Positions 25,129-39,063 of a stretch of 45,151 nucleotides of DNA are shown here, piece by piece (position 1 is the first letter of the stretch; each line of letters begins with the position of its first letter). Source of the stretch: Deltaproteobacteria bacterium tcs-42 (lineage in GTDB: Bacteria > Desulfobacterota > Desulfuromonadia > Desulfuromonadales > Geopsychrobacteraceae); assembly GCA_002049545.1 (NCBI GenBank), contig LLYT01000010.1, forward strand, positions 1 through 45,151. Direction: 5' to 3'. The notes beneath the pieces are model-generated. The model saw only the letters and a list, made by a program, of their open reading frames with translations, searched no databases and was not told the origin of the DNA. A program made the position numbers and the translations under genes.

Positions 25129-25479
25129 GGGGGTGTCAAGGTTTCGACGGGGGACGGAAACGAAGTGCAGCATGCCGGAGTGGGCTGGCTCCGTAACAAG
25201 CCCAACTTAACTAAACGCAGATACTGACGTTAGTTACGCACTAGCAGCCTAAGGCTGTTACGTCTTGCCAATCATCGCCTGTGTGGCTGGCCGGACGTTA
25301 ATTTAGCAGGCTAGTTTTAGCGAATGTCTGTGGCGCTGAGGCAAAACTTAAGCAGACTCGCCGGGTGGATATCCTGTCTGTGGGAGCTTCAACCTGTTAA
25401 CTTAAAACACAGACTACGCATGTAGAAGCCTTACGTGGAAAGCTTTCGGACGCGGGTTCGATTCCCGCCACCTCCACCA
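25129..25479 (+). ncRNA. ssrA: Transfer-messenger RNA
   Basis: The 5' end GGGGGTG (25129-25135) pairs with CACCTCC (25469-25475), followed by A and an encoded CCA at 25477-25479. The T-arm GGGTTCGATTCCC is present at the 3' end. The tag frame starts at GCA 25217 and reads ADTDVSYALAA, then TAA at 25250-25252, ending in the ALAA degradation signal. The length, 351 bases, is normal for a one-piece tmRNA. smpB is directly upstream. The 3' end of ssrA is a frequent target of integrating elements, and the base composition changes just downstream. Confidence 0.97.
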
Positions 25480-38153: not shown

Positions 38154-38393
38154 TTGAAAAGCCTTTGCAGGCTCCCCATAGTTCAATCATAAAACTCTTA
38201 TGACCGACTGTCAACTGGTGCCGAGAAATAAATTGTCAGCAAAAAAAAGCTGAAAATCATTCTTGAAATGATCGAAATCGTATGTAAAGCTCAACAGGTC
38301 TGAGATATCAGGTTTTTATCTCTGTCTAATCCTCTTTTATCAACCTGTGTATGTCGCGGTTTAACGTTGATATCGGGCAACCTGGAGTTATTG
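38154..38393 (+). other. Intergenic region before the small membrane protein gene
   Basis: About 240 bases with only a short GAGATA/TATCTC hairpin near 38302-38322. A minus-strand frame from 38188 (MIELWGACKGFS...) crosses the G-rich hairpin but has no ribosome-binding site. I see no supported gene. Confidence 0.4.
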
Positions 38394-38594
38394 ATGAGCC
38401 CTGAATACGTTTATACTATTGGTATTGCTGTTGCGGTTGTTTTGGCTCTGCTCTGGTCATTTGTTCTGGATAAACAGAAACCGCCGAGCGTAAAAGAATT
38501 TATCGCTAAATTGATTGCCAGGGCATTATTTTTTATTGCCTTGTTTGCAATTTTCATGGGGTTTCTTTCGCTGGCTTTTGATTTGTTTCGCTGA
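38394..38594 (+). CDS. Small two-helix membrane protein, hypothetical
   Basis: A 66-residue protein with two hydrophobic segments (YTIGIAVAVVLALLWSFVL and ALFFIALFAIFMGFLSLAF) joined by a basic KQKPPSVKEFIAKLIAR stretch. I do not recognise a family. GGAG at 38384-38387 is six bases before ATG 38394; the frame is open to 38367 but with a poorer start. A hairpin follows at 38640-38667. Confidence 0.65.
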   Translation: MSPEYVYTIGIAVAVVLALLWSFVLDKQKPPSVKEFIAKLIARALFFIALFAIFMGFLSLAFDLFR

Positions 38595-38874: not shown

Positions 38875-39063
38875 ATGAAAAAGCGTTTTTTAAAGATTGT
38901 GATAACCACTTTGGCTGGTGCTTTGTTGGGTTCATTACTCGGATACCTCGGGCAATGTGCCGGCAGTACCTGAGGTGCAACCTCCAGTCCCTGGTCAGGG
39001 ACACTTTTTGGAATGGTGGTTGGTTTTATTTTAGGGTGTTTGCCTGGAGAAAAAACCAAGTAA
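38875..39063 (+). CDS. Selenocysteine-containing small membrane protein, DUF6132-like
   Basis: The frame starts at ATG 38875 (MKKRFLKIVITTLAGALLGS), has an in-frame TGA at 38971-38973 and continues to TAA at 39061, giving 62 residues with Sec at position 33. The context GQCAGST-U-GATSSPWSG matches, from my knowledge of the family, the GCxxGTCPITSNPWxS core of DUF6132-like proteins, with Sec in place of the second conserved Cys. The spacing C-x4-U equals C-x4-C, and T-S-x-P is kept. Two membrane segments flank the core (VITTLAGALLGSLLGYLG and LFGMVVGFILGCL). A hairpin fitting a bacterial SECIS follows the TGA. The ribosome-binding site is weak. Standard callers would miss or truncate it. The alternative is a nonsense-mutated pseudogene. 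Confidence 0.8.
38971..39002 (+). promoter_or_regulatory. Bacterial SECIS hairpin
   Basis: Nineteen bases after the UGA codon, GTCCCT (38987-38992) and AGGGAC (38997-39002) form a perfect 6-bp stem with the tetraloop GGTC. From memory the E. coli fdhF SECIS has the same GGUC apical loop at nearly the same distance, and its loop G and U contact SelB. A stem placed like this within coding sequence supports Sec insertion. Confidence 0.75.

Follow-up and report, generated by a model that had tools for sequence, protein, structure and literature searches.

In the CcdA and DsbD relays, a pair of membrane thiols is fed by thioredoxin. Among selenoproteins, of which a 2026 review counts 119 families or subfamilies, the accessible part of the catalogue includes YeeE/YedE and MerT-like proteins, with which the protein proposed here would share a selenocysteine (Sec) in a membrane protein (PMC13188914). 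The same part of the review gives the limits of the bacterial SECIS as a loop of 3-9 nt with a G within the first two positions, a stem of 4-16 bp, a distance of 16-37 nt from UGA to loop, and a minimum free energy of at most -7.5 kcal/mol (PMC13188914). In the accessible text of the deep-Sep deep-learning survey, Desulfuromonas soudanensis WTL is listed with 13 known and no new selenoproteins (PMC12013277).

Here we describe a locus in a window of 45,151 nt, the whole stretch analysed from the anaerobe Deltaproteobacteria bacterium tcs-42, in which an in-frame TGA interrupts a gene of the DUF6132 family. We consider it very likely that this locus is a DUF6132 selenoprotein gene whose product has, in general terms, a thiol/selenol role in the membrane.

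The reading frame across the TGA

The locus comprises the following features, in window coordinates:

38875..39063, plus strand: proposed DUF6132 selenoprotein reading frame, 62 residues with the TGA read through, ending in TAA; Pfam PF19628, E 2.9e-12
38878..38961, plus strand: predicted membrane helix 1, residues 2-29 (AlphaFold2)
38956..38958, plus strand: TGT codon of Cys28, first residue of the C-x4-U pair
38971..38973, plus strand: UGA, proposed codon of selenocysteine 33; all 32 matches in the order have TGA here, and all 21 matches from another phylum have Cys
38987..39002, plus strand: proposed bacterial SECIS of 6 bp with loop GGTC at 38993-38996; spacing of 19 nt in 40 of 40 loci
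38989..39000, plus strand: codons CCC TGG TCA GGG of Pro39-Trp-Ser-Gly42, spelled by the hairpin
38989..39039, plus strand: predicted membrane helix 2, residues 39-55 (AlphaFold2)

Translated from 38875-39063 across its single in-frame TGA, the read-through product is MKKRFLKIVITTLAGALLGSLLGYLGQCAGSTUGATSSPWSGTLFGMVVGFILGCLPGEKTK, followed by the terminal stop TAA at 39061-39063. The frame, the C-x4-U pair formed by Cys28 and residue 33, the T-S-S-P stretch and the TAA end are all present in the sequence as originally predicted. Membership of DUF6132, also part of that prediction, was confirmed by a Pfam score of 46.5 bits against a gathering cut-off of 23.2 for the window protein with Cys put for Sec; among NCBIfam models searched up to E = 1, the sole match was CrcB, at 14.1 bits against a cut-off of 129. 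Because standard gene calling ends the reading frame at the TGA, gene finders miss this 62-residue membrane protein.

From an AlphaFold2 model built with 15 sequences (mean pLDDT 73.2 over the protein and pTM 0.47, the loop being poorly predicted), the product is predicted to be a hairpin of two glycine-rich helices. Summed across 26 TGA proteins, there are 69 K/R and 2 D/E at the N-termini (for several loci a rule was used to place the start codon, and a few of these starts, e.g. that of L018, may be wrong), no charges in the loops, and 35 K/R and 38 D/E at the C-termini. This pattern favours a topology in which the two termini lie inside and the loop with Cys and Sec faces outward. Among 16 Cys proteins that are not fused to another domain, 23 K/R at the N-terminus, 16 in the loop and 19 at the C-terminus leave the topology ambiguous.

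Purifying selection acts on both sides of the TGA: over all pairs of 11 congeneric loci, dN/dS is 0.165 across the 25 codons before it and 0.140 across the 24 codons after it. Three competing reading frames over the locus, one of 93 residues on the plus strand and two on the minus strand, were rejected on the basis of six-frame dN/dS and stop codons in the same 11 loci. The +1 frame has a dN/dS of 0.914; the +2 frame contains stops in 10 of the 11 loci and has a dN/dS of 3.6; and minus frames a and b contain stops in all 11, with values of 1.17 and 6.85. Minus frame c, with stops in 6 of 11 loci, shows a low dN/dS of 0.32, which we take as a mirror of the third positions of the real frame.

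Also identified in the window were a tmRNA gene at 25129-25479, with tag peptide ADTDVSYALAA, and a reading frame of 75 residues without a Pfam match at 38367-38594, upstream of the proposed selenoprotein gene, relatives of which are similarly placed in congeneric loci. The gene neighbours in the window, which include DUF1451, SEC-C and a Na/Ca exchanger, are also found in congeners, but point to no role and have no link to redox chemistry.

Conservation of the TGA and its cysteine counterparts

A DUF6132 search of 60 relatives found 26 matches, distributed over 26 genomes, and every one of them contains a single TGA. Across the order, all 32 matches, in 32 of 136 genomes, likewise contain exactly one TGA; one of these, G926, lies below the family cut-off and was counted for its TGA only, with its residues left out of the reading. 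In a draw of 395 genomes from the phylum, 14 of 14 matches in 12 genomes have one TGA, one match again falling below the cut-off. Ten matches of this draw, all with TGA, are additional to those of the order-wide search, and without double counting the order and the draw together give 42 of 42. The order-wide search found no DUF6132 match in the other 104 of 136 genomes, which indicates that the gene is dispensable. In no full match in relatives did we find a second stop, such as the scattered stops that would have counted against the original prediction. Five stop-free partial matches (L100-L104) from the draw of 400 genomes described below, which cover 25-33 model positions and of which two exceed the cut-off, were excluded as not being full DUF6132, and L001, L059-L070 and L073-L075, which repeat the window or loci counted otherwise, were not recounted.

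The distance from the TGA to the Pro-Trp motif is constant in all 45 rows of the alignment, representing 44 distinct loci since L071 and L106 are the same. Sec is better conserved than the first Cys of the pair, which is placed as C-x4-U in 41 of 45 rows and as C-x5-U in three, and is absent from one. Of the conserved CxxxxC core with Sec in second place that had been proposed, the Sec position stood, while a universal first Cys did not. The row without it (L078, 1501-1650, reading GYYGSTHGGU) comes from a Chloroflexi MAG, in which it is the second DUF6132 copy of the TGA form, and given that its first Cys is missing, the Cys-Sec pair cannot be required everywhere. This Chloroflexi-titled MAG carries two TGA-form copies in all, and a draw of 400 genomes from its phylum added one further TGA form. 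In named records, 16 of 17 loci are TGA forms, 15 of them under titles that are Desulfuromonadales-type or unspecifically deltaproteobacterial and one under the Chloroflexi title; Desulfuromusa MAGs and Pelovirga terrestris are among the titles with a TGA form. Among 27 stretches matching the pattern in viral contigs, there was no relative.

Relatives with Cys in place of Sec, which the original prediction had called for, were found in the phylum of the MAG "bacterium isolate SKW220", where 21 DUF6132 matches in 19 of 44 genomes contain no stop and all 21 place a Cys exactly at the TGA position. A Cys match in the control genome of Bacteroides ihuae was kept outside the residue counts, and plasmids yielded no match for the Cys form of locus L072. 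In a tree of 62 rows and 57 columns, two Sec-Cys changes were counted, compared with a mean of 17.9 in shuffles. Many forks of this tree are unresolved and none of the bootstrap trees of the 62 rows recovers Sec as a single group, so that the Sec form may have arisen once or more than once.

The window's genome also holds the machinery for selenocysteine that the prediction needed. Adjacent selA, selB and selD loci (C66:3550-7861) score 586.4, 356.9 and 361.1 bits, and a tRNA-Sec on C87 scores 71.2 bits, all above their cut-offs. The selD locus contains one in-frame TGA and, judging from this, probably encodes a selenoprotein as well. Further, SelA was matched in 32 of 37 TGA-form genomes versus none of 19 Cys-form genomes, a count that leaves out five genomes added by the order-wide search. 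The TGA-form genomes without a SelA match are G003 and G006, both with a tRNA-Sec above the cut-off, and G010, G011 and G013, which lack one above the cut-off and are 81, 78 and 63% complete, respectively. Given that the tRNA-Sec search responds in 14 of 14 control genomes at E 0.001, only scores above the cut-off were counted, and these occur in 35 of 41 genomes.

A candidate SECIS within the coding sequence

The predicted stem of 6 bp with a GGTC tetraloop, 13 bases after the TGA, was borne out at 38987-39002. Its stem starts 13 nt and its loop 19 nt past the TGA, its free energy is -9.5 kcal/mol, and it falls within all of the bacterial SECIS limits given in the accessible text of the review (PMC13188914). 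Across 40 distinct TGA loci, the spacing between UGA and loop is 19 nt without exception, and counting from the loop outward, standard pairs are formed in 40, 38, 40, 38, 38 and 32 loci. At the same place in the 21 Cys genes, the corresponding counts are 11, 7, 18, 0, 13 and 2, and a hairpin is absent from all 21. The limit of -7.5 kcal/mol is reached by 33 of 41 TGA genes and by none of the 21 Cys genes, the other eight TGA hairpins falling short of it; in L099 the innermost pair is open and the loop larger.

In isolation the hairpin is unremarkable, as the region contains two terminator-like hairpins where 1.1 are expected, and SECIS-like hairpins also accompany four other TGA sites in the window. 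It is conservation, rather than the hairpin alone, that carries the case for a selenoprotein. Together with ACTTTTTGGA, the hairpin does score as terminator-like, as would be the case if the TGA were an ordinary stop and the hairpin a transcription terminator behind a peptide of 32 residues. Against this, amino-acid selection persists past the TGA (dN/dS 0.140), the T-run falls within Leu-Phe codons and is not shared by all relatives, L036 being one that lacks it, and the site is occupied by TGA, or by Cys where SelA was not found. The dN/dS values and the missing T-runs led us to rule this reading out, and we regard it as exceedingly improbable.

The candidate SECIS also appears to leave its mark on the protein. 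Among related, and hence not independent, loci, Ser is encoded by TCA in 34 of 37 and Gly by GGG in 33 of 35, whereas 17 long reading frames of the window used for comparison have TCA for 14% and GGG for 25% of these residues. At the fifth pair, 20 loci have C-G, 10 have T-G, 8 have T-A and 2 have T-T. Three loci with a Gly-to-Trp change (L043, L045 and L046) read CCATGGTCATGG, such that a C-G pair has become A-T through a silent Pro change; in two others (L039 and L041) CCC is kept, leaving a C-T mismatch. Cys relatives vary across Trp-Ser-Gly, and the only one with this stretch, L076, spells it CCATGGAGCGGC and has no hairpin. Together, the codon bias, the compensatory changes and the lack of a hairpin in Cys genes suggest that the RNA signal imposes Pro-Trp-Ser-Gly, i.e. 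that the hairpin appears to be a bacterial SECIS that also encodes these residues. If so, nature would here provide a clear example of a protein sequence that is constrained by a signal in its RNA.

Read-through of the TGA as some other residue, without Sec machinery, would conserve the frame equally well. However, the site aligns with Cys, the hairpin conforms to the SECIS model and the presence of SelA follows that of the TGA form, and we assign this possibility a practically negligible probability. Taken together, the conserved TGA, the Cys relatives, the Sec machinery and the fit to SECIS support the selenoprotein interpretation of the original prediction, which, as a reading of sequence comparisons, we hold to be almost certainly correct.

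The four other TGA sites in the window (31521 on the plus strand; 44207, 9839 and 7092 on the minus strand) are each flanked on either side by open frame and have a hairpin that satisfies a loose SECIS rule; some of them may have arisen by chance.

Proposed role and comparison with known systems

Five of the 21 Cys proteins (L076, which is the L072 protein, L080, L081, L082 and L093) possess a C-terminal thioredoxin domain (PF00085), suggesting that the likely role is that of a membrane thiol/selenol partner of thioredoxin. Thioredoxin-related genes also adjoin several Cys relatives: a thioredoxin gene lies directly upstream of L081 and of L093; L079 precedes a small gene, thioredoxin-like by eye and without a Pfam match, beyond which lies a pyridine-nucleotide disulfide oxidoreductase; and L083 adjoins a pyridine-nucleotide disulfide oxidoreductase with a rhodanese domain. 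Among the TGA-form proteins, none was seen to be fused to thioredoxin. A one-sequence AlphaFold model of the L072 fusion was poor (pLDDT 65.3) and was discarded. Separately, a CGGC-domain gene (PF08821) lies approximately 100-550 bases upstream of the TGA in the TGA-form locus L046, and a similar gene, by a likeness noted without a Pfam scan, lies upstream in L045.

In the mechanism we propose, the hairpin, whose loop starts 19 nt beyond the UGA at 38971, would direct SelB and Sec-tRNA to insert selenocysteine there, and the ribosome would, as the comparative evidence suggests, carry on to the TAA at 39061-39063. Cys28 would then sit at the end of helix 1 and Sec33 in a short loop which, going by the charges, would face outward provided that the two ends lie inside. 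The two residues could form and break a selenenylsulfide and, as the fusions and neighbour genes of the Cys relatives suggest, may exchange electrons with a thioredoxin-type partner. The thiol-selenol redox role at the membrane that was originally predicted gains weight from the thioredoxin fusions of the Cys relatives, and we consider a thioredoxin-linked form of this role, drawn from sequence relationships, somewhat more probable than its alternatives taken as a whole.

More specifically, oligomers of these glycine-rich helices might relay reducing equivalents from cytoplasmic thioredoxin to outer thiols, as a minimal CcdA/DsbD-like system. The charges of the TGA proteins, which favour an outside loop, agree with such a relay, as does the thioredoxin domain of Cys relatives, which follows helix 2 and would then be inside; L079 moreover adjoins a gene resembling thioredoxin reductase. 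Conversely, the 16 Cys proteins without a fusion leave the topology ambiguous, two helices and one pair could hardly serve both faces alone, and neither Pfam nor the PDB gives a match to relays of the CcdA/DsbD type: none of CcdA/DsbD, MerT/MerF and YeeE is among the eight Pfam matches up to E = 1, the best of three matches in a PDB sequence search has E 0.14, and none of 17 matches in a PDB fold comparison reaches E 0.001 or better. We therefore offer the relay as a tentative idea only. Equally speculative is a fuller version, in which DUF6132 would be a minimal two-helix unit whose Cys-Sec pair links thioredoxin with the opposite side of the membrane by handing on reducing equivalents, whose SECIS dictates part of helix 2, and in which the Gly-to-Trp change is paired with a silent Pro change that keeps the stem.

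Alternatively, the Cys/Sec pair might bind a soft ligand, such as a sulfur species, selenium or a metal, e.g. mercury, and handle it or move it across the membrane in the manner of MerT/MerF or YeeE. A small membrane protein carrying a thiol/selenol pair would suit this function, MerT-like and YeeE-like selenoproteins occur in the accessible part of the 2026 catalogue (PMC13188914), and the Cys relative L083 lies beside the oxidoreductase with a rhodanese domain. Nevertheless, similarity to MerT/MerF or YeeE did not emerge from Pfam up to E = 1, genes for these proteins were not found among the Pfam-scanned neighbours, which are part of all neighbours, and the thioredoxin fusions indicate electron exchange, such that we judge ligand binding to be unlikely. 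Thiol/selenol exchange at the membrane is the role that we consider most likely.

The prediction that the selenoprotein is unreported is supported by the 2026 catalogue, in the accessible part of which DUF6132, PF19628 and CxxxxU were not found (PMC13188914). The accessible parts of six further sources (PMC9312934, PMC12013277, PMC2398784, PMC1914089, PMC1242214 and PMC1794560) contain nothing that could be matched, hypothetical families given only in figures, e.g. GOS_A, lying outside this comparison; our comparison with known selenoprotein families covers those with a library model, which GOS_A, for example, lacks. In a search of full-text literature, with supplements, preprints, most subscription papers and GenBank annotation outside its scope, DUF6132 appears only in a paper that is, by its title, about plant nucleotide sugar transporters, and PF19628 appears nowhere; among the other papers listed, no title points to this family. 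That the family is unreported is accordingly our working conclusion. If correct, the known selenoproteins would be extended by a family that is apparently uncatalogued and occurs in Thermodesulfobacteriota and in Chloroflexi MAGs.

With the bacterial selenoproteins catalogued in the accessible part of the review, the locus shares a UGA followed by a SECIS hairpin within the published limits, Cys relatives, and Sec machinery, and it differs in that no row of Table 1 in this part corresponds to DUF6132/PF19628 or to a CxxxxU motif (PMC13188914). From the YeeE/YedE and MerT-like selenoproteins it is set apart by a lack of Pfam similarity up to E = 1. Its closest counterpart, the Cys form of DUF6132 (PF19628), has in common with it the family as assigned by Pfam score, the C-x4-C/U core, the helix hairpin and the T/S-x-P region, whereas the TGA form has Sec for the second Cys, the proposed SECIS, a Pro-Trp-Ser-Gly that the hairpin nearly fixes and no thioredoxin fusion seen. 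The natural fusions of the Cys form to thioredoxin provide a direct lead to the partner, and the window protein, being tiny, lends itself well to modelling how a selenol reacts within a membrane. With CcdA/DsbD, the window protein possibly shares a mode of working, and differs from them in consisting of two helices only.
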